Origin: Bordetella flabilis | GTDB lineage: Bacteria > Pseudomonadota > Gammaproteobacteria > Burkholderiales > Burkholderiaceae_B | Length of the DNA: 64,000 bases | Assembly: GCF_001676725.1 (NCBI RefSeq) | Contig: NZ_CP016172.1 | Location: 248,001 to 312,000, forward strand | Reading direction: 5' to 3' | Shown: positions 7,591 to 21,803 of the stretch, in pieces | Numbering within the stretch: position 1 is the first letter of the stretch | How the letters are laid out: every line of letters begins with the position of its first letter | Program-made: the position numbers and the translations under genes | The notes under the pieces: model-generated | What the model saw: only the letters and a program-made list of their open reading frames with translations | The model's database searches: none | What the model was told of the DNA's origin: nothing

Positions 7591-8838
7591 ATGACTTCCA
7601 TCCTGTTCCAGAACGCGACCTTGCTCGACCCGGCCTTGCCCGACCTGCAGGAGGGTATGCATGTGCTCGTGGAAGGCGGCGCCGTCAAGGAGGTCTCCGA
7701 CCGGCCGCTGCAGTCGTCCAGCGCGCGCGCCATCGACCTGCGTGGCCGTACCTTGATGCCTGGCCTGATCGACCTGCACGTCCACGTGCTGGCCACCCAG
7801 TTGAACCTGAGTACGCAAGGCGTGTTGCCCGATGCGCTGGTGATGATGCGCGCCGTGCCCATCATGGCGGCCATGCTGCGCCGGGGTTTCACGACCGTGC
7901 GTGACGCCGGCGGCGCGGGCTGGGGCCTGAAGTGCGCGGTGGAGGAAGGCACGGTCGTGGGGCCGCGGCTGTTCATCTCCGGGCACGCCATCAGCCAGAC
8001 CGGGGGCCATGGCGATCCACGGCCGCGCTCCGACCACCTGCGGCCCATGAGCTTCTGCGGCTGCTGCTTTCGCGCCGGCGACATCGGCCGCGTGGCCGAC
8101 GGAGTCGACGAGGTGCGCAAGGCTGTGCGCCAGGAATTGCAGATGGGCGCGGACCAGATCAAGATCATGGCTTCGGGCGGCGTGGCTTCGCCGACCGACC
8201 CCATCGCCGCCTTCGGCTATGCCGAGGACGAGATCCGCGCCATCGTCGCCGAGGCCGCAGGCCGCCAGACCTATGTGATGGCGCACGCCTACACCGCCCA
8301 GGCGATCTCGCGCGCCGTCGCCAATGGCGTACGCACCATCGAGCATGGCAACCTGGTGGACGAGGCGGCCGCCGCCCTGATGGCCGAGCGCGGCGCCTAC
8401 GTGGTGCCCACGCTGATCACCTACGAGGCCTTGGCCAACGAGGGCGCCGACTATGGCCTGCCGGCCGACAGCGTGGCCAAGATCGCCACGGTGCGCACCG
8501 CGGGCCTGCATTCGCTGGAAATCTACAAGCGCGCGGGCGTGAAGATGGGCTATGGCTCCGATCTGCTGGGTCCTTCGCAGCGGCTGCAAAGCGACGAGTT
8601 CCGGCTGCGTGCGCAGGTGCTGACGCCGCGCGAGGTCATCCAGAGCGCCACCACGATCGCGGCGGAGGTCTTGAACATGCGGGATCGGCTGGGACGCATC
8701 GTGCCGGGGGCCATGGCGGACATGCTGGTGGTGGATGGCAACCCTTACCGCGACGTGTCCTGCCTGCTGGGGCAGGGTGACCATATCGGGCTGGTCATGA
8801 AGGACGGGAAGATCTTCCATGACGCATTGGCGGCCTGA
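7591..8838 (+). CDS. Metal-dependent amidohydrolase (imidazolonepropionase/prolidase-like)
   Basis: A 415-residue member of the amidohydrolase superfamily (COG1228 type). The metal site is intact: GLIDLHVHVL gives the HxH pair (His63, His65), DQIKIMASGGV the candidate bridging Lys, VMAHAYT and TIEHGNLV two further His ligands, and GYGSDLLGP the catalytic Asp. The N- and C-terminal beta-strands form the usual small sandwich domain, ending with the DMLVVDGNPYRD motif. Expected to hydrolyse a C-N bond, such as a cyclic amide or a dipeptide with an unusual residue. GGAG precedes the ATG. No signal peptide, so cytoplasmic. Confidence 0.88.
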   Translation: MTSILFQNATLLDPALPDLQEGMHVLVEGGAVKEVSDRPLQSSSARAIDLRGRTLMPGLIDLHVHVLATQLNLSTQGVLPDALVMMRAVPIMAAMLRRGFTTVRDAGGAGWGLKCAVEEGTVVGPRLFISGHAISQTGGHGDPRPRSDHLRPMSFCGCCFRAGDIGRVADGVDEVRKAVRQELQMGADQIKIMASGGVASPTDPIAAFGYAEDEIRAIVAEAAGRQTYVMAHAYTAQAISRAVANGVRTIEHGNLVDEAAAALMAERGAYVVPTLITYEALANEGADYGLPADSVAKIATVRTAGLHSLEIYKRAGVKMGYGSDLLGPSQRLQSDEFRLRAQVLTPREVIQSATTIAAEVLNMRDRLGRIVPGAMADMLVVDGNPYRDVSCLLGQGDHIGLVMKDGKIFHDALAA

Positions 8839-8986
8839 ACGGGAAGCTGGCGTATCCCGGTCCGCAACATGAGACTACGCCGCCGACTACCCCGCGCCAC
8901 TGCATTGCACACTGCATCGCCCACTACGTCGCCCACGATCCGGCCCGCGACGTACCCGACTGCCCAGCCCACTACGGAGCGCCAGC

Positions 8987-10600
8987 ATGCCCATCGACAA
9001 TCCCTATGCAGACGTGGAAGTCGGCGAGGAATCCCGAGCGCTGAATGCCGCCAAGGGGTGGCACCCGCCGGTCGCCGCCACGGCGCGGGACCGCGGCGAG
9101 GGGCCGTTCGGTCGCCTGGTGCTGCGCGGCGCCACCATCATCGACGGCACGGGAGCGCCGCCCTGGGGACCGGTGGACATCGTGGTGGAGAACGACCGCA
9201 TCGTCGCGCTGGTGAACGTGGGCACGCCGCACAAGCCCATCCATCCCGACCGTCGCCCGGCGGCGGGCGACCATGAGATCGATTGCCACGGCAAGTTCGT
9301 CACCCCGGGATTCGTCGACTCGCACGCGCATATCGGTACGCCGTATCACACGATGAGCGGCGTCGTGCCGCCGGCGGACTATATCTACAAGCTGTGGCTG
9401 GCCCATGGGGTGACCACCGTGCGCGAGATGGGTTCGATGAACGGGTTGGGCTGGAACCTGGAACAGAAGGCGCTGTCCGAAAGCAACGGAATCGCCGCGC
9501 CGCGCATCGTCGCGCACGTGGTGTTTCCGGCGGTCAACGACCGCGTCAAGACCATCCATACGCCGGAGCAGGCGCGCGAATGGGTGCGGCGCATCCAGGC
9601 GCGCGGCGCCGACGGCATCAAGTTCTTCGGCGCGCCCCCGGCCATCATGCAGGCCGCGCTGGACGAGGCACGCAAGCTGGGCTTGCGTTCCGGCTGCCAC
9701 CATGCGCAGATGGCGGTGACCCGGGTGAACGCGCTGAAATCCGCGCAATGGGGCCTGACCAGCTCCGAGCATTACTACGGCCTGCCGGAAGCGCTGTTCG
9801 AGAACCGCGTGGTGCAGGACTTCCCCACCGACTACAACTACGGCGACGAGTATTACCGCTTCGCGCTGGCCGGCCAGACCTTCATGCAGGCGGCGCAGCC
9901 GGGCAGCGCCAAATGGCGCGAGGTCATGGACAAATTCCTGGAGCTCGGCCATACCTTCGTGCCTACCTTCAACATCTATGACGCCAACCGCGACCTGATG
10001 CGCGCGCGGCGCGCGGACTGGCACGACGACTACACCTGGAAGGCGATCTGGAAGTACTTCCAGCCGCAGCGCGGCGGCCATGGCGCCTATTGGTATCGCT
10101 GGAGCACGACCAACGAAATCGAATGGAAGCAGAACTACCGGCTGTGGATGCAGTTCATCAACGAATACAAGAACCTGGGCGGGCGCGTCTGCGCGGGCAG
10201 CGACTCCGGATTCATTTTTCAGATCTATGGCTTCGGCTTCGTGCGCGAACTCGAATTGCTGCAGGAGGCCGGCTTCCATCCGCTGGAGGTGCTGCGCGCC
10301 GCGACCTCGCTGGGCGCCGAGCTGTTGGGCGTGGACGGCGACACGGGGACGGTCGACGTCGGCCGGCGCGCGGACCTGCTGGTGCATGACCAGAACCCGC
10401 TGGAGGACTTCAAGCTGTTGTACGGCACCGGCGCCATGCGCCTGAACGACGAGACCGGCCAGGTCGAGTGGAAACGGGCGCTGCGCCATACCATCAAGGG
10501 CGGCGTGGTCTACGACACGGAACAATTGCTGGCCGATGTGCGCGAGCTGGTCCAGGGCAGCTGGGAAGGAGATCCGGATGGACCGCCCCACGCCCGTTGA
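8987..10600 (+). CDS. Second metal-dependent amidohydrolase
   Basis: A 537-residue, longer amidohydrolase-superfamily protein, only distantly similar to its neighbour. It shows GFVDSHAHIGTP (His113 and His115), a Lys in DGIKFFGAPP, His residues in SGCHHAQMAV and SSEHYYG, and the Asp in CAGSDSGF. The C-terminus ends with the RADLLVHDQNPLEDF strand. A central insert rich in aromatic residues (about 320-385) is unusual for the superfamily. The preceding 148-bp spacer holds degenerate copies of CACTGCAT and GCCCACTACG but no gene. The 3' end overlaps the GTPase gene by 23 bp. Substrate unknown. Confidence 0.87.
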   Translation: MPIDNPYADVEVGEESRALNAAKGWHPPVAATARDRGEGPFGRLVLRGATIIDGTGAPPWGPVDIVVENDRIVALVNVGTPHKPIHPDRRPAAGDHEIDCHGKFVTPGFVDSHAHIGTPYHTMSGVVPPADYIYKLWLAHGVTTVREMGSMNGLGWNLEQKALSESNGIAAPRIVAHVVFPAVNDRVKTIHTPEQAREWVRRIQARGADGIKFFGAPPAIMQAALDEARKLGLRSGCHHAQMAVTRVNALKSAQWGLTSSEHYYGLPEALFENRVVQDFPTDYNYGDEYYRFALAGQTFMQAAQPGSAKWREVMDKFLELGHTFVPTFNIYDANRDLMRARRADWHDDYTWKAIWKYFQPQRGGHGAYWYRWSTTNEIEWKQNYRLWMQFINEYKNLGGRVCAGSDSGFIFQIYGFGFVRELELLQEAGFHPLEVLRAATSLGAELLGVDGDTGTVDVGRRADLLVHDQNPLEDFKLLYGTGAMRLNDETGQVEWKRALRHTIKGGVVYDTEQLLADVRELVQGSWEGDPDGPPHAR

Positions 10601-11579
10601 CCTGGTCATCCTGTCCGGCTTCCTGGGCAGCGGCAAGACCAGCCTGCTGGTGGATTTCCTCGCGCGCGCCGATGCCGGCGATACGGGCGTGATCGTCAAC
10701 GAGGCCGGCGAGATCGGCGTGGACGGCGCCATCGTCGCCGACGGCAGCGACGACGTTCCGATGCGGATGCTGGCCAATGGTTGCGTGTGCTGTTCCCTGC
10801 GCAGCGGGCTGGTGCATACGGTGAACGCGCTGCTGGATGCGCCGCGTCCGCCGGGCCGCGCCGCGCTCTCGCGCATCATCCTGGAGACCAGCGGACTGTC
10901 GCGCCCCGGGCCCATCATCGCGTCCCTGGCCGATCCCGAGCTGGCCGCGCGCGGGCTGCGCCTGTCGGTGGTGACCACCTACGATTGCGCGCGCGGCGCA
11001 TTGGGCAACGAACAGTTCGAGGAAGCCGCCGCCCAGTTCGCCGCCGCGCAGCGCATCGTGCTGACCAAAACCGACACGGTGCCGGCCGCCACGCTGCCGG
11101 AGCACCGGCGGCGCGCCCAGGCCCTGAACCCGCTGGCGGAAATCGTCGCCGAGCCGGACCGCGCGCAGGCCGTCGCGCAAGCCTTCGCCGGCCTGCCCGG
11201 TACATCGGTCACGACGCTGGCCCTGGAAGCGCTGCGCCGCGCGGGCGCCGAAGCCGGGGCCATGCGCCATCCGCGCATCCGGGTGTGGCGCGGAACGGTA
11301 CGCGAGCCCATGGCATGGGCCACGTTCTCGACCTGGCTCGACGACCTGGCGGGGCTGTGCGGCGACCGGCTGTTGCGCCTGAAGGCCTTGCTGCGCGTCA
11401 GCGATTGCGCCGAGCCGGTATTGATCCAGAGTGTCGGAACGACCTTCGGCATGCCGCGCCGCATGGCTACGCTGGCGTCCGAACAGGATGTGTTGATCGT
11501 CATCACGCGCGACGTGGAGGCCGAGGCGCTGGCGACATTGGGCGCGGACGCACCGGTGGTGCTCACGGCCTGTCCGTGA
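10578..11579 (+). CDS. CobW/COG0523-family GTPase (putative metallochaperone)
   Basis: A 333-residue P-loop GTPase. Walker A is GFLGSGKT (residues 14-21). The family's metal-binding GCXCC motif is NGCVCCSLRSG (68-78), LETSGLS lies in the switch region and LTKTD provides the guanine specificity motif. The C-terminal CobW_C domain follows. COG0523 proteins deliver or insert Zn, Co or Fe into client enzymes. The start is fixed by AAGGAG inside the end of the upstream amidohydrolase, so the two genes are physically coupled. This suggests the amidohydrolases as clients, which is an inference. Confidence 0.88.
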   Translation: MDRPTPVDLVILSGFLGSGKTSLLVDFLARADAGDTGVIVNEAGEIGVDGAIVADGSDDVPMRMLANGCVCCSLRSGLVHTVNALLDAPRPPGRAALSRIILETSGLSRPGPIIASLADPELAARGLRLSVVTTYDCARGALGNEQFEEAAAQFAAAQRIVLTKTDTVPAATLPEHRRRAQALNPLAEIVAEPDRAQAVAQAFAGLPGTSVTTLALEALRRAGAEAGAMRHPRIRVWRGTVREPMAWATFSTWLDDLAGLCGDRLLRLKALLRVSDCAEPVLIQSVGTTFGMPRRMATLASEQDVLIVITRDVEAEALATLGADAPVVLTACP

Positions 11580-11696
11580 GCGCGCCGGCACGTGCGGGCC
11601 AGGGGCCGCGTGCGGCGGCCGGGTCATTCATGTGTGCAGTTGGCATGCGGTTTCTGCCCGCGATTGCCGGGCTTACTTTCACATAAGGGATCGATC

Positions 11697-12761
11697 ATGA
11701 ACCATCGGGGTATACAGCGTCGCAGCTTCCTGAAAACCGCTTCCGGCCTGGCGCTGGCGCCCGCGCTGCCGCTCGTCCCGGCCCTGGCGCAGGCCGCCGG
11801 CAAGGAGGTCGTGGTGGGCACGTGGGGCGGGGATTACCAGAACCTGCTCCAGCAATACATATCGCCGCTGATGGAGAAGCAGGACATCGGCGTGGTCTTC
11901 CAGACCGGCAACGCCGTGCCGCGCGTGACCAAGCTGCGGGCCGAGCGCGATGCGCGCCGGGGCAGCATGGACGTCGCGCTGCTGGGCGATGTGGATATGT
12001 ACGATGCCGCCCAGGCCAAGGCGCTGGCGGACATCAAGAGCCATGCGGCCGAGGTGCCGAACCTGGCCCAGGTGTATGACCAGTTCAAGACGGCGTATTC
12101 CATCCCGCATATCTTCAGCGCGATGACGCTGGTCTATAACACGCAGCAGTTTTCCACGCCGCCGGATTCGGTGCAGGTAATGCTGGACCCGAAGTACAAG
12201 GGCCGTGTCGGGTTCTCCGACATTCTGTATCTGTACAACGGGCTGTTCGTCGGCGCGGGCGGCAGCGGCGGCCACATCGACAGTTTCGAGCCGGGCAAGA
12301 AGTTCCTGGGCGAACTCGTGAAGAACACGCCGCGCATCTACCCGTCCAACGAGGCGGTGGCCACGGCCTTCAAGTCCGGCGAGATCTGGATGGCGTGCAT
12401 GTGGAAGGCGCGCGCGCTGCAATGGCGCGACGCGGGCCTGCCGCTGGACTTCGTCATTCCCAAGGAGGGCGCGATACCGGTGACATTCGAGGCGGCCGTC
12501 GCGAAGAACTCGCGCAATCCCGGCCCGGCATGGGCCTACCTGAACGCGCTGCTGGAGCCGGCGGGCCAGGTGCATTTCGCGCGCGCCATGGGTTACGCGC
12601 CCACGGTCCGCAACGCCTCGCTGCCCGACGACCTGCGCAAGCGCGTGGCCTTCACCGACGCGGAGCTGTCGCGCATCTATCCCTATTCGCTGGACAAGCT
12701 CGCCGCGGGCAAGTCGGCCTTCCTGGACTACTGGACCAAGTCATTCAAGGGCGCGCTATAA
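11697..12761 (+). CDS. Spermidine/putrescine-type periplasmic binding protein with Tat signal
   Basis: A 354-residue family-1/PotD-type binding protein. The N-terminus QRRSFLK followed by a mild hydrophobic stretch and ALAQAA is a clear twin-arginine (Tat) signal, so it is probably exported folded. The mature protein begins EVVVGTWGGDYQNLLQQY, typical of this class. It completes the ABC system whose permeases and ATPase begin at 4740; the two amidohydrolases and the GTPase lie between. AAGGGA precedes the ATG. The ligand may be a polyamine, opine or similar cation, but this is not proven. Confidence 0.9.
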   Translation: MNHRGIQRRSFLKTASGLALAPALPLVPALAQAAGKEVVVGTWGGDYQNLLQQYISPLMEKQDIGVVFQTGNAVPRVTKLRAERDARRGSMDVALLGDVDMYDAAQAKALADIKSHAAEVPNLAQVYDQFKTAYSIPHIFSAMTLVYNTQQFSTPPDSVQVMLDPKYKGRVGFSDILYLYNGLFVGAGGSGGHIDSFEPGKKFLGELVKNTPRIYPSNEAVATAFKSGEIWMACMWKARALQWRDAGLPLDFVIPKEGAIPVTFEAAVAKNSRNPGPAWAYLNALLEPAGQVHFARAMGYAPTVRNASLPDDLRKRVAFTDAELSRIYPYSLDKLAAGKSAFLDYWTKSFKGAL

Positions 12762-12832: not shown

Positions 12833-13990
12833 CTAGAGCGTCGCCGCCGTGCCGAGGATGACCGTGCTCTGGCTCGACAGCGTGCCGCCGTTCCCGTGCG
12901 CCAGCGCGGTCGCGCAGCCGGGGACCTGGCGCGCGCCGCATGCGCCGCGGAGCTGCCGCACCGCTTCGATCAGCGCGAAGATGCCGTACATCCCGGGATG
13001 GCAATAGGACAGGCCGCCGCCGCTGGTGTTGACGGGCAGCGCGCCCCCCGGCGCGATGCGGCCATCTTCGACGAAGCGTCCGCCTTCGCCCTTCGGGCAG
13101 AAGCCCAGGTCTTCCAGGAACAGGAGCGTCGTGATGGTGAACGCGTCGTACAACTGGAGCACGTCCATATCGGCCGGCGCCAGCCCGGCCATCTGGTAGG
13201 CCTGCCGGCCGGACTGCACCGCCGCGGTGGTGGTCAGGTCGGGCATCGACGATATCGAGTAATGGCCCAGGGCCTCGCCCAGCCCCAGTACGTAGGCCGG
13301 CGGCCTGCGCAGGTCGCGCGCGCGATCCGCGCGGGTCAGTACGATCGCGCCGCCGCCGTCGGTCACCAGGCAGCAGTCGCGCAGCGTCAGCGGGTCGCTG
13401 ATCATCGGCGAGGCCAGGACATCCGCCACGGTCAGCGGCTTCTTCTCCCAGGCCACCGGGTTCAGCAGCGCCCACTGCCGCGCGGCGACGGCGATCCGTG
13501 CCAGTTGTTCGCGCGTGGTGCCGTGGACATGCATGTGGCGCGACGCGGCCAGCGCATACGAACTGGCCGTGTACAAGGGCTGGTACGGCGCCTCGTGCGG
13601 GTTGGCGTCCGGCGCCGCCACGTTGGCGCGGCCCATGCTGCGCTGGGTGCTGCCATACGCGATGACGGCGACTTCGCACAAGCCCGCCGCGATGGCGGCC
13701 TGCGCGTGGGCCACCATGGACATGAACGACGCGCCGCCCATATTGGTCGCGTCGTGGTAGCGCGGCGCGATGCCCAGGTATTCGCACAGGGCCAGGGTCG
13801 GCATGCGGCTCTGCGAGGTGGTGGCGAAGACGCCGTCGACGTCGGCCAGCGCCAGGCCGCAGTCGTCCAGCGCGCGTCCCACGGCCTGGGCCATCAGGTC
13901 GATGGCGCCCAGGCCGGGCGCGACCTTGCCCAGGTCGGATTCGGCGGCGCCGACAATGGCGACGTGGCCGCGCTGCAGGGCGGGCGTCAT
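12833..13990 (-). CDS. Thiolase-fold protein lacking the catalytic Cys (SCP2/Ltp2-like, putative aldolase)
   Basis: A 385-residue thiolase-superfamily protein of the lipid-transfer type. At the place where thiolases have N-x-x-C-A-S-G it reads NMGGASFMS, so the nucleophilic Cys is Gly86. The second active-site Cys is also missing: the C-terminal motif is HGNGGTLSS. The NTSGGGLSYCHPG segment keeps the family His. Claisen/thiolysis chemistry is therefore unlikely. Relatives such as Ltp2 of steroid degraders act as retro-aldolases together with a DUF35 partner, and a DUF35 gene overlaps this one (ATGA). Order and overlap argue for a complex. The substrate is unknown. Confidence 0.87.
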   Translation of the reverse strand: MTPALQRGHVAIVGAAESDLGKVAPGLGAIDLMAQAVGRALDDCGLALADVDGVFATTSQSRMPTLALCEYLGIAPRYHDATNMGGASFMSMVAHAQAAIAAGLCEVAVIAYGSTQRSMGRANVAAPDANPHEAPYQPLYTASSYALAASRHMHVHGTTREQLARIAVAARQWALLNPVAWEKKPLTVADVLASPMISDPLTLRDCCLVTDGGGAIVLTRADRARDLRRPPAYVLGLGEALGHYSISSMPDLTTTAAVQSGRQAYQMAGLAPADMDVLQLYDAFTITTLLFLEDLGFCPKGEGGRFVEDGRIAPGGALPVNTSGGGLSYCHPGMYGIFALIEAVRQLRGACGARQVPGCATALAHGNGGTLSSQSTVILGTAATL

Positions 13991-14382
13991 GCAGCCTCCG
14001 GTACGTCGAAAACAGGATAGGGCGCGTCGTCGCCGTCCGGCTGCACGGCCCGCATGCGCACCCGCATGCCGATGCGCACGTCGGCGGGCGCGACGCCTTC
14101 GACGCGGCTCATCATGCGAAAGCCTTCGTCGACGTCGACCAGCACCACGTTGTACGGCGCCTGGTCGCGCGGACGCACGACGGTGACGGCGTGCACGGTC
14201 CCTGCGCCGGCGCTGATGCGCCAGGGCAGGTCCGTGGCGCCGGATCCCGGCGCGAGCACGCGCGGCGGGAACACGGGGCGCTGCGCGACCGGGTCATATT
14301 GGTAGGCCAGTTCGCCGCGCGCCAGGTGGCGCCGGTAGGTGGCCAGCGGGGACTCCCGCGTGGCGCTTTCGTTCGCATCCAT
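13987..14382 (-). CDS. DUF35 OB-fold protein without zinc-ribbon cysteines
   Basis: A 131-residue protein. The second half (AGTVHAVTVVRPRDQAPYNVVLVDVDEGFRMMSRVEG then IGMRVRMRAV) is a clear DUF35 OB fold. The N-terminal part, which normally holds a CxxC...CxxC zinc ribbon, contains no cysteine; the whole protein has none. DUF35 proteins pair with thiolase-like enzymes and help CoA binding or complex assembly. Start at 14382 gives MDANESATRESP. It ends inside the thiolase start codon, implying translational coupling. Confidence 0.82.
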   Translation of the reverse strand: MDANESATRESPLATYRRHLARGELAYQYDPVAQRPVFPPRVLAPGSGATDLPWRISAGAGTVHAVTVVRPRDQAPYNVVLVDVDEGFRMMSRVEGVAPADVRIGMRVRMRAVQPDGDDAPYPVFDVPEAA

Positions 14383-14414
14383 GAAACGCTTTCCTGAAAA
14401 GATGAGGCAGGGCG

Positions 14415-15746
14415 CTAAACCACACGCTTGTCCCGCAACGCCGCCACCTGTTCGGTGGAGTACCCGAGCAGCCTTTCCAGCACATAGGACGTGCTGTCGC
14501 CGAGCCGCGGCGGGGGCAGGTCGTAGCGCGGGGGCGTGCCTTGCAGGCGCAGCGGGCTGGCGATGGTGGAGACGACGGCGTTCGCGTCGCCGGGCCGTGG
14601 AATGTCGACGCGCAGGCCGCGATGCCGCACCTGCGGGTCCTCGAACACCTGGGCGTAGTCGTTGATGGGGCCGCATGGAACGCCGTGGCCTTCCAGCCGT
14701 TCGATCCATTCCCTGGCCCCGCGCGTCAGCATGGTGCGCGCCAATTGGGGAACCAGCTGGTCGCGGTCCTGGATGCGCCCGGTGACCTTGTGCCAGCGCG
14801 GATCGGCGCCCAGGTCCGGCCGGTCGATGGCGCGGCAGTAGCGCTGCCACTGGTCGTCGTTGCCCACGGCCACCACGATTTCCCCGTCGGCGACGGTGAA
14901 GACCTGGTACGGCACGAGGCTGGCGTGCGCGTTGCCGTAGCGGTGCGGCACCTTGCCGCTGGCGAAATAGCCCGTGACCTGGTTGCCGCCCAGCGCCACG
15001 ATGCAATCGAGCAGGGCCATGTCGATGTACTGGCCCTGGCCGGAGACGTCGCGATGATTGAGCGCGGCCAGGATGGCAATGGTGGCGTACATGCCGGTGA
15101 TCACGTCGGCGATGGCGATACCGGTTTTCTGCGGGCCGCCGCCGGGCAGGTCGTCGCGTTCGCCGGTAATGCTCATCAAGCCGCCCAGGGCCTGGAAGAC
15201 GAAGTCGTAGCCCGGCTTGTGCGCGCTGGGCCCGTCCTGTCCGTAGCCGGTGATGGAGCAATAGACCAGGCGCGGATTGACGGCCCGCAGGCTGTCGTAA
15301 TCCAGGCCGTAGCGCTTGAGGTCGCCGATCTTGTAGTTCTCGATGACCACATCGCTGTGCGCGGCCAGTTCGCGCGCGATACGCTGGCCGTCGGCCGTGG
15401 AAATGTCCAGCGTCAGCGATTTCTTGCCGCGGTTGGCGGCGGCGTAATAGGTGGAGTCGCGCGTGTCCCGGCCTTCGGCTTCGCGTATCCAGGGCGGTCC
15501 CCATGCCCGCGTGTCGTCGCCCGTGCCCGGGCGCTCCACCTTGATGACCTCCGCGCCCATGTCCGCCAGGTTCTGCGTGCACCAGGGACCGGCCAGGATG
15601 CGCGACAGGTCCAGGACACGGATGTGGGACAGGGCGCCCGCCGCGGGGCCGGGGCGCGCGGCGGCGTCCGTGCCGCCGGACGGCGCTGGTGCGCCGCCCC
15701 GGCCAGGGGGCGTTGCGCCGGCGGCTGACGTCGGATTGACCGTCAT
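14415..15746 (-). CDS. CaiB/BaiF-family (class III) CoA-transferase
   Basis: A 443-residue CoA-transferase. The N-terminal VLDLSRILAGPWCTQNLADMGAEVIKVERPG is the CoA-binding signature of the family. DMALLDC carries the catalytic Asp (residue 247), which forms the acyl anhydride. The MTVNPTS start at 15746 is supported by AGGAG seven bases upstream; two upstream ATGs are less well placed. The first 37 residues are Pro/Gly/Ala-rich and unconserved. It probably moves CoA onto the carboxylate taken up with the help of the Bug receptor 10 bp upstream, starting the pathway in this operon. Confidence 0.92.
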   Translation of the reverse strand: MTVNPTSAAGATPPGRGGAPAPSGGTDAAARPGPAAGALSHIRVLDLSRILAGPWCTQNLADMGAEVIKVERPGTGDDTRAWGPPWIREAEGRDTRDSTYYAAANRGKKSLTLDISTADGQRIARELAAHSDVVIENYKIGDLKRYGLDYDSLRAVNPRLVYCSITGYGQDGPSAHKPGYDFVFQALGGLMSITGERDDLPGGGPQKTGIAIADVITGMYATIAILAALNHRDVSGQGQYIDMALLDCIVALGGNQVTGYFASGKVPHRYGNAHASLVPYQVFTVADGEIVVAVGNDDQWQRYCRAIDRPDLGADPRWHKVTGRIQDRDQLVPQLARTMLTRGAREWIERLEGHGVPCGPINDYAQVFEDPQVRHRGLRVDIPRPGDANAVVSTIASPLRLQGTPPRYDLPPPRLGDSTSYVLERLLGYSTEQVAALRDKRVV

Positions 15747-15756
15747 GCACATGCTC

Positions 15757-16731
15757 CTATTGGATGGTGATGTGGGCGTCGGCGATGACCTTGGCCCATT
15801 TGTCCATTTCGGCATTGACGAACTGCGCGAACTGCGGCTGCGTCATGGTGCCCGGCTCGGCGCCCTGCAGCGCGAACTGCTGCTTGATCTCCGGGCTTTG
15901 CAGGGCGGCCAGCACGTCGCGCGACAGCCGCGCCGTCAGGTCGGCGGGCATGTTGCCGGGGCCGTAAAGCCCGAACCACGCGGTGGCTTCGAAGCCCTTG
16001 ACGCCGGCTTCGTCCAGCGTGGGTACGTCCGGCAGCGCCGGCGATCGGGTCAGCGATGTCACGCCCAGCGCGCGCAGCTTGCCCGCCTTGATGTGCTGCA
16101 GCACGCCTGGCACGGAATCGAACATCACGCGTATCTGCCCGCCCAACAGGTCGTTCAAGGCCGGCGCCGCGCCCTTGTACGGGATATGGACCATGTCGAC
16201 GCCTGTCATGGACTTGAAGAGCTCGCCGGACAGGTGGTTGGCCCCGCCCGTGCCGGCCGAGCCGAAATTGACCTTGCCCGGGTTGGCCTTGGCGTAGGCG
16301 ATCAGTTCGGCCACGGTCTTGGCGGGGAAGGCCGGGTTCACCACCAGCACATTGGGCACCGCGGCCACCAGCGCGATGGGCGTGAAGTCGGTACGGGTGT
16401 CGTAGCGCAGGTTCTTGTACAGCGCGGGGTTGATGACGTGGTGGGTGGCGGTGACCATCAGGGTGTAGCCGTCCGGCGCGCTGCGCGCCAGTTGTTCGGA
16501 GAAGATCGTGCCGCTCGCGCCGGGCTTGTTCTCCACGACGACGGGCTGGGACCACTTCGCGCTCAGCGCATTGCCCAGCAGCCGCGCCAGGATGTCCGTG
16601 GTGCCCCCTGCAGGGAAAGGTACGACCAGCCGCACGGGACGGTCGGGGAAGTCCTGCGCGGACGCGGCTGGGCCGGCCATGCAGGTCAGGCCGAGGCAAA
16701 GCGCCACGGCGGTACGCAACCAGGTTTTCAT
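15757..16731 (-). CDS. Bug-family tripartite tricarboxylate transporter receptor
   Basis: A 324-residue periplasmic receptor with a signal peptide (ending AASAQ) and the Bug hallmarks: FPDRPVRLVVPFPAGGTTDILAR, VVVENKPGASG, the HIPYKGAAPALNDLLGGQIRVMFD segment and LPDVPTLDEAGVKGFEA. Such proteins bind small carboxylates such as dicarboxylates, aromatic acids or amides. No TctA/TctB membrane genes lie nearby, as is usual for Bordetella Bug genes. It sits in the CoA-module operon, 10 bp before the CoA-transferase, so its ligand is probably the module's substrate. Confidence 0.92.
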   Translation of the reverse strand: MKTWLRTAVALCLGLTCMAGPAASAQDFPDRPVRLVVPFPAGGTTDILARLLGNALSAKWSQPVVVENKPGASGTIFSEQLARSAPDGYTLMVTATHHVINPALYKNLRYDTRTDFTPIALVAAVPNVLVVNPAFPAKTVAELIAYAKANPGKVNFGSAGTGGANHLSGELFKSMTGVDMVHIPYKGAAPALNDLLGGQIRVMFDSVPGVLQHIKAGKLRALGVTSLTRSPALPDVPTLDEAGVKGFEATAWFGLYGPGNMPADLTARLSRDVLAALQSPEIKQQFALQGAEPGTMTQPQFAQFVNAEMDKWAKVIADAHITIQ

Positions 16732-16842
16732 TGCTTGTCTCCTGTCTATTGTGGTCCGGATGTCCGCGCGGCGCGCATGGCGGCGCGCGGCGTCCGGGTT
16801 CGTTCCCGCGCGGTCCCGCGGCCGGGACCGCGGGACCGCGTT

Positions 16843-17283
16843 TCAGGCCAGCGGGAATTCCACCATGGCCTCGCCCACCGCCACGGTTTCGCCGCGCTGG
16901 TTCAGCACCTGCACGTCCAGCGTTGCCCAGCGGCTTTTCTCGGTCTTGCGCGTGGCGGTCACCACGGCCTGCGGCCGTATGGTGTCGCCCGGCTTGACCG
17001 GCGCTTTCCAGCGGGTTTCCAGGCGGCGCTGTACGCCCCCATTGGGGTGCAGCCAATCGGTCAGCATCTTGGTGATCACGCCAAAATTGTTCATGCCGTG
17101 CATGATGATGCCGCCGAAATTCGTCTTGCCGAAGCTGCCCTTCATGTACTCGTCATCCCAATGCAGGGGATTGAAGTCCAGCGAGGCCTCGCAGAATTCG
17201 CGTATCGATTCGCGCGTGGGCGAGAACGGCGTGCCGTCGATCTTCACGCCGGGCGCCAGGGTGTCGAAGGTATGCGTCGTCAT
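16843..17283 (-). CDS. MaoC-family enoyl-CoA hydratase, catalytic subunit
   Basis: A 146-residue hot-dog-fold protein. The hydratase signature D-x-N-P-x-H-x-D is intact as LDFNPLHWDDEY (Asp36, Asn38, His41), followed by GGIIMHGMNNFGVITKMLTDWL. It should add water across an alpha,beta-unsaturated acyl-CoA. Ten bases upstream is a second MaoC-like protein with a damaged motif, so the two probably form a heterodimer with a single active site. A 110-bp gap separates it from the Bug gene downstream. Confidence 0.9.
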   Translation of the reverse strand: MTTHTFDTLAPGVKIDGTPFSPTRESIREFCEASLDFNPLHWDDEYMKGSFGKTNFGGIIMHGMNNFGVITKMLTDWLHPNGGVQRRLETRWKAPVKPGDTIRPQAVVTATRKTEKSRWATLDVQVLNQRGETVAVGEAMVEFPLA

Positions 17284-17293
17284 GGCGGGTTCC

Positions 17294-17764
17294 TCACATC
17301 GGGCGGATCGTCCAGCCGCGGCCGGAGCAGATCACTTCATTGTTCTGGTTGAAGAAGACGTTGTCGTGCACCACGAACAGGCGGTCTTTCTTGATGAACT
17401 TGTCCAGCGCGCGCGCATCCAGGCGGATGACGTCGCCGGGGCGCGCCGGCACGTTGTAGCTCCAGGACTGGCCGGCGTTCACCGTGCCGGGGCTGCGCAT
17501 CCAGTCATCGGTCGGCGTGCAGGCGAACATCAGCAGGATGTGGATGGCGGGCGGCGCGATCAGCCCCTTGTACGGCGACTTGCGGGCGTACTCCTCGTCG
17601 AAGTACAGCGGGTGCATGTCGCCCACCACCTTGCAGTACTTCTGGATGGCTTCCAGCGTCAGGGTGTAGGGGATGGTCTTGCGCGGTTCGCCGGGCACGA
17701 TGTCGTCCCAGATCTTGCGCGAGGCGGCGTCTTTCCAGAAGTCTGTCTCGAAGGTTTGTGTCAT
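17294..17764 (-). CDS. MaoC/FAS1-like dehydratase domain protein, probable non-catalytic partner
   Basis: A 156-residue protein of the MaoC-N/FAS1-like dehydratase group. At the active-site position it reads GDMHPLYFDEEYA: Asp49 is kept but Tyr54 stands where the catalytic His should be. This fits a structural half of a heterodimeric hydratase paired with the next gene. The start at 17764 has GGAAAGG upstream and begins MTQTFETDFWKD; the upstream in-frame ATG at 17827 falls in the promoter region. First gene of the leftward operon, facing the IclR regulator. Confidence 0.86.
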   Translation of the reverse strand: MTQTFETDFWKDAASRKIWDDIVPGEPRKTIPYTLTLEAIQKYCKVVGDMHPLYFDEEYARKSPYKGLIAPPAIHILLMFACTPTDDWMRSPGTVNAGQSWSYNVPARPGDVIRLDARALDKFIKKDRLFVVHDNVFFNQNNEVICSGRGWTIRPM

Positions 17765-18029: not shown

Positions 18030-18803
18030 GTGGCCACACCGGAAAGCGAGTCCTTCGTCCGCACCTTCGCGCGCGGGTTGAAGATCATCGAAGCCATGGG
18101 GCAGGGCCAGGCGCGCCAGACGCTGGGCGACGTGGCCGCGGCCGTCGACCTGCCGCGCACGGCCGTGCGCCGTTTCCTGATGACTTTGATCGAGCTGGCG
18201 TTCGTCAGGACGGACGGCAAGCACTACTGGCTGACGCCCAAGGTGCTGCGGCTGGGACTTTCCTACCTCTACACGCTGCCGTACTGGCGCGAATCGCAAC
18301 TCGCGCTGGAAGAACTGGGCGCGCGCATCGGGCAGTCCTGCGCCGTGTCGGTCCTGGACGAGGAAGACATCGTCTATGTGCAGCGGCTGCATACGCGGCG
18401 CATCCTGCCCATGAGTCCATCGCTGGGCAGCCGCCTGCCGGCGCACGCGGTATCCATGGGCCGCGTACTGCTGGCCGGACTCGATGATGACGCGTTGGAC
18501 GCCTACCTGGACGCGGCCGTGCTGAAGAAGCTGACCGCGACCACGGTGGTGGATCGGGCCAGCCTGAAGGACATCATCCTGGGGGTGCGCGGCCAGGGCT
18601 ACGCCTGGGTGGACGGGGAACTGGATGATTCGATCGCCGGCCTTGCCGTGCCGGTACGCGACCAGGACGGCGCGATCGCCGCCGCCATCAACGTCAGCCT
18701 GCAGGCCGGAACCTACGACCAGGAACGCGCCATGGCGGAATTCCTGCAGCCGCTGCGGCAAACCGCATCGCAGCTGCGGGCAACGATGGTGGGCTATCGC
18801 TAG
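18030..18803 (+). CDS. IclR-family transcriptional regulator
   Basis: A 257-residue regulator: winged helix-turn-helix at about residues 10-70 (RTFARGLKIIEAMGQGQARQTLGDVAAAVDLPRTAVRRFLMTL) and the IclR effector domain after it, with ACGPAV-like segments replaced by GSRLPAHAVSMGRVLLAGL and the C-terminal GQGYAWVDGELDDSIAGLAVPV. This most resembles the PcaR/PobR branch that controls aromatic or CoA catabolism. GTG at 18030 is chosen because GGGGAGG precedes it; a GTG at 18009 would add seven residues. It is divergent from the MaoC operon, its likely target. Confidence 0.9.
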   Translation: MATPESESFVRTFARGLKIIEAMGQGQARQTLGDVAAAVDLPRTAVRRFLMTLIELAFVRTDGKHYWLTPKVLRLGLSYLYTLPYWRESQLALEELGARIGQSCAVSVLDEEDIVYVQRLHTRRILPMSPSLGSRLPAHAVSMGRVLLAGLDDDALDAYLDAAVLKKLTATTVVDRASLKDIILGVRGQGYAWVDGELDDSIAGLAVPVRDQDGAIAAAINVSLQAGTYDQERAMAEFLQPLRQTASQLRATMVGYR

Positions 18804-18824: not shown

Positions 18825-21803
18825 CTAGAACGCGACCTTCAGCGCGGCCATGACACCGTTCTGGTGTACGCCGTCGCCCAGCTGCCCGGTGTACGACAGG
18901 CCGGCCTTGACGCGCGTCGTCAGATTCAGGTCGAAGCCGACCTGGATGATGGCCGCGTCGACGGCGACCGGGACACCGGCGACCGTGAACGGCGAACCCG
19001 CGGGCAGCGATTGCGTTGCGGTCGGCGTCGTGTCGCCGAAGGCGTGGCGCCAGCCCAGCATGCCGCGCAGCACGCCGCTCTTGCCGCCGGCGTCGAAGCG
19101 CGTCGAGGCCCGCAGCCCGACGGTGGAAGTCGTCACCCCGGTATTGTCGCTGCGGCCGGACAGGCCCGCGTCGCCGCCTTCGTCGAAGCCGCGCGTGTGC
19201 AGGTTGGTGTAGGCCAGACCCACGAAGGGCTCGAAGGTGGAGGCGCCGCGCTCGATGGTGTAGCCGGTTTCCGCGAACAGTTGCGCGGTGTTGCCCCCAT
19301 ACGAGGCCTTGTCGGTTTCCCCGGCGAAACCGGCGAAACCCACGTTGCGCGTCGTGTCGATGTCGTGCCAGGTGCTGGCCGCGCCCAGTCGCAGGCCCCA
19401 CGGGCCCATGCGCGTGCCGGTGTAGGCCGCCACCGTGTAGCTGTCGATGCCGGCGCCGCTGGCACGCCCGTCCAGGTCCAGGTCGCTGTGGTCGTAGCCC
19501 GCCGCCAGGCCGGCGCGCCAGCCGCGCCCCAGGGGAAAGTCGGCGCCGACGATGAAGCCGCCGACGTTGCGGTCCAGCCTGGCGGCGTTGCCATTGCCGT
19601 CGATGCCGCCCCACGAACCATAGGCTTGCGCCCAGACGGCGCCGCGGTCGGCCGCCCCGGGCAGCGTATCCACGCCGGCCGCGGACGCCGTGCGTATCGG
19701 TCCCGACGCATCGCCGGCGAAGGCCGAGCGCAGGCGGTCATTGATGGCGTCGCGGGTGTACTGGCTGTTTTCGATCAGTGCGCTTTTCAGGCTGGCGTGG
19801 ATCTCCCCGGACAGGCTGTCGTACGCTTCGCGCAAGGCCGACTCGTCGTCGCCCATCAGCGCGATGGTGTCGTGCACGACCTGGCCGTTGGGCTGGCTGT
19901 CCGCGGCGTTTGCGGCGGCGCGCTGGTTGCGCGTCTGCGCGAAATCGGCGTAGCGCGTGGCGTTGCGGTCGAACTGCAGGTAGACGTGGTTGGCGTCGTA
20001 GTACAGGTCCGGCTGCAGGAAGACGAAGCTCGCGGTGCTGGTCGCCGAAGCATAGCTGCCATCGATGCCCTGGCCCGCCGACAGCAGGGTGTAGCGCAGG
20101 CCCGGCGCCACCTGCGTCCCGGGCAGCGGCGTCACCACCACGCTGCCGTCCAGCGTCGCCGTGCCCGCCACACTGATCAGGTCGGACTGCCCGCCGCTGG
20201 CGATTTCCGCCTGGTAGGTGGAGCCGGGCAGCTGGGTGTAGTTGCCGGTGAAGGTCAGCGTGCCGATGGAATGCCCGGGCGAAACGGTGCCCGCCACGCG
20301 CGCGCTGCCCAGGGTCCCGTTGCCGTCCAGTACCGCGCCCGCGCCCACGTCGAGCATGCCGGCCAGGCTGCCCTGCACATCCAGGCTGCCGCCGCTGGCC
20401 ACCGTGATGCCGTTGGCGTACTGCTGGCTGCCGGTCAGGATCCAGGCGCCGCCGCTGATATTCAGCAGTTCGAAGTTGCTGGCGCCGGCGAAGCTGCCGC
20501 TGCCCACCAGTCGCACCGTGTCGGTACCGGCGCCGCCGTCGACCAGCCCATCGAAGCGGCCGCCGCCCTGCACGACGAGCGTATCGTCGCCGCCGCCCAT
20601 GTCCAGCGCCAGGCCGTTGCCGCCCTGTATCAGGCCGGCATTGGTGACGCTGTCCGCCTGGTTGCCGATAAGCTTGATGCCGAATCCCGCCACGCCGCGT
20701 ATGGTGCCGTTGTTCACGATCACGGTCGGGGCCGGCGCGTTGCCGGCATTGCTGTCGTCCACGAGGATGCCGTTGGTCTGCCCGCTGATCAGCGAGCCCG
20801 CGGTCATGTTGCGGATGGTGCCGCCGCCCACGGCAACGCCTTCGCTGGTGTTGGCGGAGCCGTCTTTCTCGCCCTTGGCGCCTACGCCCTGGATGGTGCC
20901 GTAGTTGGTGATGCTGGCATTGCCGTCGATGTCCACGCCGTCGCCGTCGCCGTTGACGGAGGTCGTGTCCACGGCGCCCGTGATGGTCCCGTAATTGACG
21001 ACGGTGCCGTCGCCGTCCGATCCCACGCCGGACCCGTTGCGGCCGATGATGGTCCCGCCGGCGGCATTGCTGACATTCACGTCGACGTCGCTGGTGATGC
21101 CGTGGCGAGCCCCGGAAATCAGCCCGCCGGCGTTATTGTTGACCGTGGCGGCGTGACCCTGCAGGTCGACGCCGTCGTTCGAGGGGTCGTCGTCGGGATC
21201 GCCGGATGTATTGGCGGGCGCATAGGAAATGATGCGGCCGTCGTTGTTGACCACGCCGCCTTCGCCCGGACGTACGGCGTCGGCGTCCATGGCCTGGATC
21301 AGGCCGCCGGCGCGATTGTTGATCACGACATTGCCGGCGGTGTCGATCTTGTCGAAATCGATGGCTTGTCCGGTTTGCGAAGTGATGGTGCCGGCGTTGT
21401 CCACCACGATCCTGCCGACCGGCACGTCGGTGTTGATCCGCACGGCGTCGTCGCTGGTGTCGATGGCCGCGCCGGCCAGGTTGTTCAGGGTGAAGATGAA
21501 CGGCGATCCACCGCTGCCGCTGGTGTCGATGCCCCGGTTGCCGGACCGCAGCGTGCCGGCGTTCTGCACGCTGAGTCCGGGCGCCGCGGCGCCGGCGTTC
21601 AGCGTCAGGGCGGTGCCGGAGGTGTCCAGCGTGCCGCCATTGGCGATCTGTGCGCTGTCGCTGCCCGATAGCGTGTAGCGCTTGGTGTCGGTCTGGCCGC
21701 TGCCGACCGTGACGGATGCGGCGCTGGCGGCCATCGGCGTCATGGCGGCGGCCATCGTGGCGACCAGCGCGGCAGGCGCCGCATGATCCAGGAACTTCGG
21801 CAT
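18825..21803 (-). CDS. Type Va autotransporter with beta-helix passenger
   Basis: A 992-residue protein in three parts. A signal peptide covers about residues 1-30 (ending MAASAASV). The passenger (about 31-690) is built from many N-N-x-G-x-I repeats such as VVNYGTITGAV, ITNYGTIQGV and VVNNDGRIISY, which predict a right-handed beta-helix. The C-terminal autotransporter barrel (about 718-992) starts WAQAYGSWGGIDG and ends in Phe, as required for BamA recognition. The linker contains ALIENSQYTRDAINDRLRSAF. No protease or lipase motif and no RGD were seen, so an adhesin-like role is the best guess. Signal-peptide start at 21803. Confidence 0.92.
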   Translation of the reverse strand: MPKFLDHAAPAALVATMAAAMTPMAASAASVTVGSGQTDTKRYTLSGSDSAQIANGGTLDTSGTALTLNAGAAAPGLSVQNAGTLRSGNRGIDTSGSGGSPFIFTLNNLAGAAIDTSDDAVRINTDVPVGRIVVDNAGTITSQTGQAIDFDKIDTAGNVVINNRAGGLIQAMDADAVRPGEGGVVNNDGRIISYAPANTSGDPDDDPSNDGVDLQGHAATVNNNAGGLISGARHGITSDVDVNVSNAAGGTIIGRNGSGVGSDGDGTVVNYGTITGAVDTTSVNGDGDGVDIDGNASITNYGTIQGVGAKGEKDGSANTSEGVAVGGGTIRNMTAGSLISGQTNGILVDDSNAGNAPAPTVIVNNGTIRGVAGFGIKLIGNQADSVTNAGLIQGGNGLALDMGGGDDTLVVQGGGRFDGLVDGGAGTDTVRLVGSGSFAGASNFELLNISGGAWILTGSQQYANGITVASGGSLDVQGSLAGMLDVGAGAVLDGNGTLGSARVAGTVSPGHSIGTLTFTGNYTQLPGSTYQAEIASGGQSDLISVAGTATLDGSVVVTPLPGTQVAPGLRYTLLSAGQGIDGSYASATSTASFVFLQPDLYYDANHVYLQFDRNATRYADFAQTRNQRAAANAADSQPNGQVVHDTIALMGDDESALREAYDSLSGEIHASLKSALIENSQYTRDAINDRLRSAFAGDASGPIRTASAAGVDTLPGAADRGAVWAQAYGSWGGIDGNGNAARLDRNVGGFIVGADFPLGRGWRAGLAAGYDHSDLDLDGRASGAGIDSYTVAAYTGTRMGPWGLRLGAASTWHDIDTTRNVGFAGFAGETDKASYGGNTAQLFAETGYTIERGASTFEPFVGLAYTNLHTRGFDEGGDAGLSGRSDNTGVTTSTVGLRASTRFDAGGKSGVLRGMLGWRHAFGDTTPTATQSLPAGSPFTVAGVPVAVDAAIIQVGFDLNLTTRVKAGLSYTGQLGDGVHQNGVMAALKVAF

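Follow-up and report, generated by a model that had tools for sequence, protein, structure and literature searches.

TcLtp2 and CtSal are retro-aldolases of the thiolase fold that work with DUF35 partners, the former on the C3 side chain of steroids (with ChsH2(DUF35) and ChsH1-ChsH2; 6ok1, 4w78) and the latter on the side chain of bile acids (with the CtShy DUF35; PDB 9myr). Passages of the CtSal paper give the same Tyr as catalytic base in both proteins and place a Gly where thiolases have their Cys in CtSal also (PMC12329534). The steroid hydratase is a heteromeric MaoC protein of which one half has Tyr for the catalytic His and one half is fused to a DUF35 with a four-Cys zinc ribbon; in the CtSal system the hydratase is one MaoC-DUF35 fusion, and its DUF35 has a Cys3His1 zinc finger that the CtSal paper, in the part concerned, regards as an outlier (PMC12329534). 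The locus described here lies in a stretch of 64,000 nucleotides (nt) of Bordetella flabilis (NZ_CP016172.1, positions 248,001 to 312,000), referred to as the window, whose own positions serve as coordinates below. We somewhat favor the reading that it holds a catabolic operon for coenzyme A (CoA) transfer, hydration by a MaoC pair and retro-aldol cleavage by a DUF35-held, Cys-less thiolase-fold protein, P0006, the aldolase module being optional. The genes are:

17764-17294, minus strand: P0001, "MaoCY", FAS1_DH/MaoC protein (Pfam), with Asp49 and Tyr54 at the catalytic Asp/His places
17283-16843, minus strand: P0002, "MaoCH", MaoC hydratase subunit (Pfam), with Asp36/His41
16731-15757, minus strand: P0003, Bug/TctC periplasmic receptor (Pfam), closest solved relative a terephthalate-binding protein
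15746-14415, minus strand: P0004, CaiB/BaiF (family III) CoA-transferase (Pfam), top model succinate-glutarate CoA-transferase
14382-13987, minus strand: P0005, DUF35 (PF01796)/OB-fold partner (Pfam), with zero Cys
13990-12833, minus strand: P0006, thiolase-fold, Cys-less presumed retro-aldolase, with Gly86, Tyr281 in YDAF, and His331
18030-18803, plus strand: IclR regulator, PcaR/PcaU/PobR-like (Pfam; model score below cut-off), divergent from the operon

The minus-strand genes follow one another as listed, with gaps of 10, 111, 10, 32 and -4 nt, the last being the ATGA overlap of the DUF35 and thiolase genes, and this spacing makes a single six-gene operon plausible. A Pfam scan confirms the family of every named operon gene. 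Finer assignments are less firm: the succinate-glutarate CoA-transferase model gives P0004 453.9 bits, below its cut-off of 750, and the PcaR/PcaU/PobR-type model gives the IclR protein 262 bits, just under its cut-off of 284.75. An earlier note on this DNA had named the six genes, their coordinates and the residues Asp36/His41 of MaoCH, the Tyr of MaoCY and Gly86 of P0006, all of which are confirmed; it overlooked that the DUF35 is free of Cys, that P0006 has a thiolase-type His331, and the IclR gene.

The Cys of the Pyrococcus thiolase 7yvy corresponds in the alignment to Gly86 of P0006, a position that is Gly also in TcLtp2, in CtSal and in 4u4e, a "putative thiolase" of Sphaerobacter that is the closest solved structure and that further resembles P0006 in its YDSF and HPGMYG. 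Gly86 is present in all 86 open reading frames drawn from 85 loci, and the 167 database relatives listed all combine Gly86, Tyr281 and His331, so that the Gly is not a chance substitution. In a tree of 58 thiolase-fold rows, CtSal, TcLtp2, IpfD and P0006 included, Gly86 always goes with Tyr281 (52 rows) and Cys86 always with His281 (6 rows); the 52 Gly/Tyr rows form a single branch (Shimodaira-Hasegawa-like approximate likelihood ratio test, 99) in which all of these named proteins fall, in keeping with the grouping with retro-aldolases that the earlier note had proposed. P0006 thus has what characterizes aldolases of the Sal/Ltp2 kind, Gly for the nucleophilic Cys and a Tyr base in YDxF/Y. 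It has neither of their individual signatures: Ltp2 combines YDHF with Tyr344, whereas P0006 has YDAF and His331, and Sal has YDC (YDCY in CtSal) with catalytic Cys304, whereas the residue there in P0006 is Ala283. The second active-site place is a thiolase-type His in a GHP motif, as against Gln in Sal (Gln352 of CtSal) and Tyr in Ltp2. The nucleophilic Cys that marks a canonical thiolase is absent, so the name acetyl-CoA acetyltransferase, which P0006 would receive from NCBIfam PRK06158 (614.9, above the curated cut-off of 421), suits it badly. As judged from these residues, P0006 likely acts by retro-aldol cleavage, which is the best reading, and ordinary cysteine-based thiolysis should not be expected from its site. 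Other Gly86/Tyr281 types occur among the paralogues (L129 and L130 of genome G002; L134, L135, L140), with YDDY and Gln or with YDCF and a shortened HPG loop.

P0005 is a DUF35 protein in which the Pfam scan detects PF01796 alone; having no Cys, it has no zinc ribbon, which sets it apart from both the ChsH2 and the CtShy DUF35. The 2010 paper on SSO2064, in the passages concerned, describes a zinc-ribbon/OB two-domain architecture retained by all DUF35 homologues (PMC2954200). Among 85 DUF35 partners from the fetched loci (one, L046, cut at its contig start with the ribbon region outside it, and another, L023, possibly short at its start) the C-x2-C...C-x2-C ribbon is found in 3 (L004, L005, L079), and the number of Cys is 0 in 20, 1 in 37, 2 in 22, 3 in 3 and 4 in 3. 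Distant DUF35 paralogues are mostly ribboned: 20 were fetched, 13 had a DUF35 match, and 10 of the 13 show the ribbon pattern in their longest open frame.

The earlier note's pairing of the DUF35 with the thiolase-fold protein is borne out by adjacency (the DUF35 gene lies directly upstream in 85 of 85 loci) and by natural fusions, a kind of protein already noted in passages of the 2010 paper (PMC2954200). A search with the unfused P0006 gives 1 such fusion among 120 listed proteins; a search with this fusion itself gives 48 among 120 (one of them the query), all 48 with YDAFT and HPG and none with a ribbon. The model of a Bordetella genomosp. 9 fusion of 547 residues (predicted local distance difference test, pLDDT, 84.6; predicted template modeling score, pTM, 0.88; disordered linker 130-159) fits a fixed relative placing of the two domains. 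This model was built on an alignment with natural fusions (A4), another (A2) that misplaced DUF35 rows onto the thiolase part having been dropped, and its VIA match list spans residues 167-546, a range outside which the DUF35 domain lies. A literature search outside whose scope most subscription journals lay found neither a MaoC-CaiB-DUF35-thiolase operon nor a zinc-free DUF35 among the titles and abstracts listed.

The presumed IpfD and IpfE of ibuprofen-CoA cleavage, assigned on pIBU218 by gene order (L087:13639-14826 and 13228-13626), resemble P0006 and P0005 in having YDAF, a Gly at the nucleophile place, a ribbonless DUF35 partner and a non-steroid substrate. IpfD differs in having Tyr for His331 and in acting after a ring dioxygenase instead of a MaoC hydratase, and in the tree its place is beside Ltp2 and apart from P0006 (support 87, with long branches). 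According to passages of a paper on the ibuprofen pathway, the route includes a retro-aldolase step and an ipfDE-encoded thiolase, and an ipfD insertion is ibuprofen-negative (PMC9195938). Elsewhere on pIBU218, a crotonase gene and a CaiB gene adjoin another DUF35-Ltp2-like pair, which has YDHF.

MaoCY lies next to MaoCH in all 34 loci. The Asp-His pair is intact in MaoCH in 34 of 34, and MaoCY has Asp-Tyr in 33 and Asp-Phe in 1, the catalytic His being present in none, so that the pair has one complete active site, as had been proposed. One intact half and one half with Tyr for His is the arrangement of ChsH1-ChsH2, with the difference that here the DUF35 is encoded by a gene of its own and is not fused to the inert half. 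HadAB likewise combines a catalytic MaoC subunit with an inert one, HadA. MaoCY likely contributes to a hydratase heterodimer as its inert half, binding substrate; sequence and structure comparisons do not separate the two kinds for this pair. Sequence likeness is weak: P0001 is slightly nearer ChsH1/ChsH2 in single-sequence search, and P0002 is nearer HadB by single-sequence search and joint profile. The model of MaoCY is of middling quality (pLDDT 75.5, from an alignment that included MaoCH rows), and it does not separate HadA from ChsH, since their structure matches lie within about 2 Z of each other.

The favored pathway would then run as follows. The IclR regulator would control the operon; the Bug receptor would bind an organic acid, onto which CaiB, judging by its family, would move CoA from an acyl-CoA such as succinyl-CoA. 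The MaoCY-MaoCH pair, which would form an obligate heterodimer around a single active site, would convert the α,β-enoyl-CoA to the β-hydroxyacyl-CoA, and P0006, held by its DUF35 partner, would cleave this by retro-aldol reaction to a shorter acyl-CoA and an aldehyde or ketone. Tyr281 may abstract the proton of the β-hydroxyl, with His331 probably protonating or stabilizing the enolate. The aldolase module would be optional, pcaF-pcaI occupying its place in three relatives. Two points weigh against this pathway and have lowered our confidence in it slightly: DUF35-type Cys thiolases score nearly as high in structure matching, and the large count of fusions derives from a fusion query, which favors fusions. 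The earlier note's further suggestions, that the substrate is already unsaturated and that no acyl-CoA dehydrogenase is needed, rest only on operon content.

A search led by the P0006 alignment yielded 80 genome loci with the DUF35-thiolase pair. Where the thiolase is at least 78% identical, the MaoC pair, Bug, CaiB and DUF35 genes are present in the same order in 6 of 6 genome loci, with the IclR gene in 5 (it was not found in L009). These six loci occupy four differently flanked settings: flank genes vary between genera and are common only to two Achromobacter loci and to L011/L013, besides weak cross-family matches of 47% or less (the comparison used a crude codon-score gene caller, which misses genes). 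Flank genes of the window are shared with a genome that carries a DUF35-thiolase fusion. Copies of the operon are on Achromobacter plasmids, as judged by replication and integrase genes. One plasmid copy, L003 of Achromobacter denitrificans, is decayed, with Bug split and CaiB and thiolase fragmentary.

Despite this conserved order, the best-surviving alternative holds that the two modules serve different steps or substrates, MaoCY-MaoCH-CaiB being self-contained and DUF35-P0006 a recruited add-on. It is unlikely, though it draws on the same comparison. Of the 80 DUF35-thiolase genome loci, 74 yielded no MaoC pair, although 17 of these have under 5 kilobases (kb) of upstream sequence. Searched for by itself, MaoCY is found in 25 of 268 genomes of the family (E up to 1e-40), in 6 of 399 genomes of the order sample (at least 75% identity) and in 1 of 369 of the class sample, the centre itself. 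After the MaoC genes, 13 of the 25 family genomes have the DUF35-thiolase pair, 1 (G587) a DUF35 at the contig end, 3 pcaF-pcaI and 8 neither (one of the 8, G492, is also without Bug and CaiB at the locus). MaoC genes without an adjoining aldolase are present on a Diaphorobacter plasmid as well, and MaoCY-MaoCH also occurs with an AMP (adenosine monophosphate) ligase and branched-chain-type ATP-binding cassette (ABC) genes in one genome and by two UbiD genes in another. Downstream of CaiB the sequence covered mostly extends for 4-5 kb, and in L171 for under 2 kb, so an aldolase copy farther out may escape notice: in G491 a homologue of 51% identity lies about 8 kb downstream, and in G474 a broken one of 66% lies on the far side of the IclR gene, some 7 kb away from it. 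The 11 genomes with no aldolase at the MaoC locus have homologues elsewhere of up to 69% identity, none of the orthologue kind (at least 78%).

In L180, L181 and L182 the MaoC-Bug-CaiB operon is followed by canonical pcaF and pcaI, with a pcaJ-sized gene also in L181 and L182. Against a cut-off of 597 bits, the PcaF proteins of L180 and L181 score 710.9 and 719, and at both loci pcaI also exceeds its cut-off; the pcaJ-sized protein in L181 falls just short of its own (235.7 against 243.55), and the pcaF-pcaI assignment in L182 is by motif and eye only. PcaF, a 3-oxoadipyl-CoA thiolase, differs from P0006 in having the canonical Cys, NEAF, GHP and a second Cys. Given this distribution, IclR, the MaoC pair, Bug and CaiB make up the core of the operon, and the aldolase is one ending among several. 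The earlier note had proposed one hydratase-aldolase assembly with the chemistry of ChsH1-ChsH2-Ltp2. The neighbourhood comparison that it called for upholds the full gene order in close relatives; the modules are separable in the wider family, and the DUF35 lacks the MaoC fusion partner that it has in ChsH2, so that a single ChsH1-ChsH2-Ltp2-like assembly is not established. Aldolase chemistry remains likely; the active site differs from that of Ltp2, with YDAF/His331 in place of YDHF/Tyr344, and the zinc ribbon is lost.

Considerably less probable is another Cys-free reaction of P0006, such as hydrolytic C-C cleavage of a 3-oxoacyl-CoA, decarboxylation, or forward C-acylation. In its favor, the thiolase GHP-motif His331 is retained, and TbSLP, of the same fold family, is described in the CtSal paper as slowly decarboxylating malonyl-CoA; however, the passages concerned report no malonyl-CoA decarboxylation by CtSal (PMC12329534), Tyr281 of P0006 follows the aldolases in the tree, and what the operon encodes upstream is a hydratase and not a dehydrogenase. 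That P0006 is still a thiolase by way of another Cys, for instance Cys330 beside His331, is very improbable, even though Cys330 is kept in 155 of the 167 listed relatives and a Cys thiolase, PcaF, takes its place in three related operons, because position 330 is Gly in the remaining 12 and Thr in 4u4e, position 86 is Gly throughout the clade, and Cys207 and Cys298 are found in TcLtp2 too and are therefore not thiolase marks.

The clues to a substrate disagree (pcaF-pcaI, UbiD, AMP ligase/ABC and sulfur-type genes), and none is claimed for that reason. The pcaF swap, the PcaR/PcaU/PobR-type IclR and the dicarboxylate-type CaiB would suit a dicarboxylate near 3-oxoadipate; an aromatic acid would be in line with the terephthalate-binder-like Bug and with the UbiD genes that adjoin the MaoC pair in one genome, and a sulfur compound with the sulfur-type gene group of three loci. 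In the UbiD case (L120) MaoCY-MaoCH is divergent from a Bug gene and two UbiD genes, one nearest to phenylphosphate carboxylase beta (below cut-off). L184, L011 and L013 have a second Bug, a rhodanese and a flavin adenine dinucleotide (FAD) monooxygenase beside the MaoC operon, with a persulfide-dioxygenase-like metallo-β-lactamase (MBL) protein in L184 and L011. One possible lead is a thio-dicarboxylate. Growth of Variovorax paradoxus on 3,3'-thiodipropionate requires both of a neighbouring pair of enoyl-CoA hydratases, which the authors proposed as a possible heteromer acting after CoA activation (PMC6370202); the likeness is one of description, those passages leaving it unstated whether the two are MaoC-type. 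A steroid pathway was considered and set aside, as the operon has no steroid gene (the fetched genomes were not searched for such genes), and the label "non-steroid" rests on operon content.

Around the operon, a repeat-rich protein of 992 residues, autotransporter-like by eye only, is encoded just past the IclR gene (window 18825-21803). On the plus strand and convergent with the operon (window 7591-12761) are genes for two amidohydrolase-like proteins, for a GTPase that looks CobW-like by eye, and for a PotD-type binding protein.

A more far-reaching view, tentative but possible, is that P0006 represents a third, widespread Tyr281/His331 class of aldolase with a zinc-lost DUF35, serving here as a β-oxidation bypass interchangeable with PcaF thiolysis that would cleave a hydrated, CoA-activated unsaturated or branched dicarboxylate near the β-ketoadipate pathway. 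The pcaF swap would bear directly on whether a β-oxidation step and a retro-aldol step can be interchanged, and the combination of a Tyr/His pair with a zinc-free DUF35 would probe the roles of the second residue and of the zinc finger. At least 167 listed relatives are without the thiolase nucleophile, several of them named "acetyl-CoA acetyltransferase" or "thiolase" at source; if these are aldolases, the degradation routes to which they have been assigned contain one wrongly annotated step.
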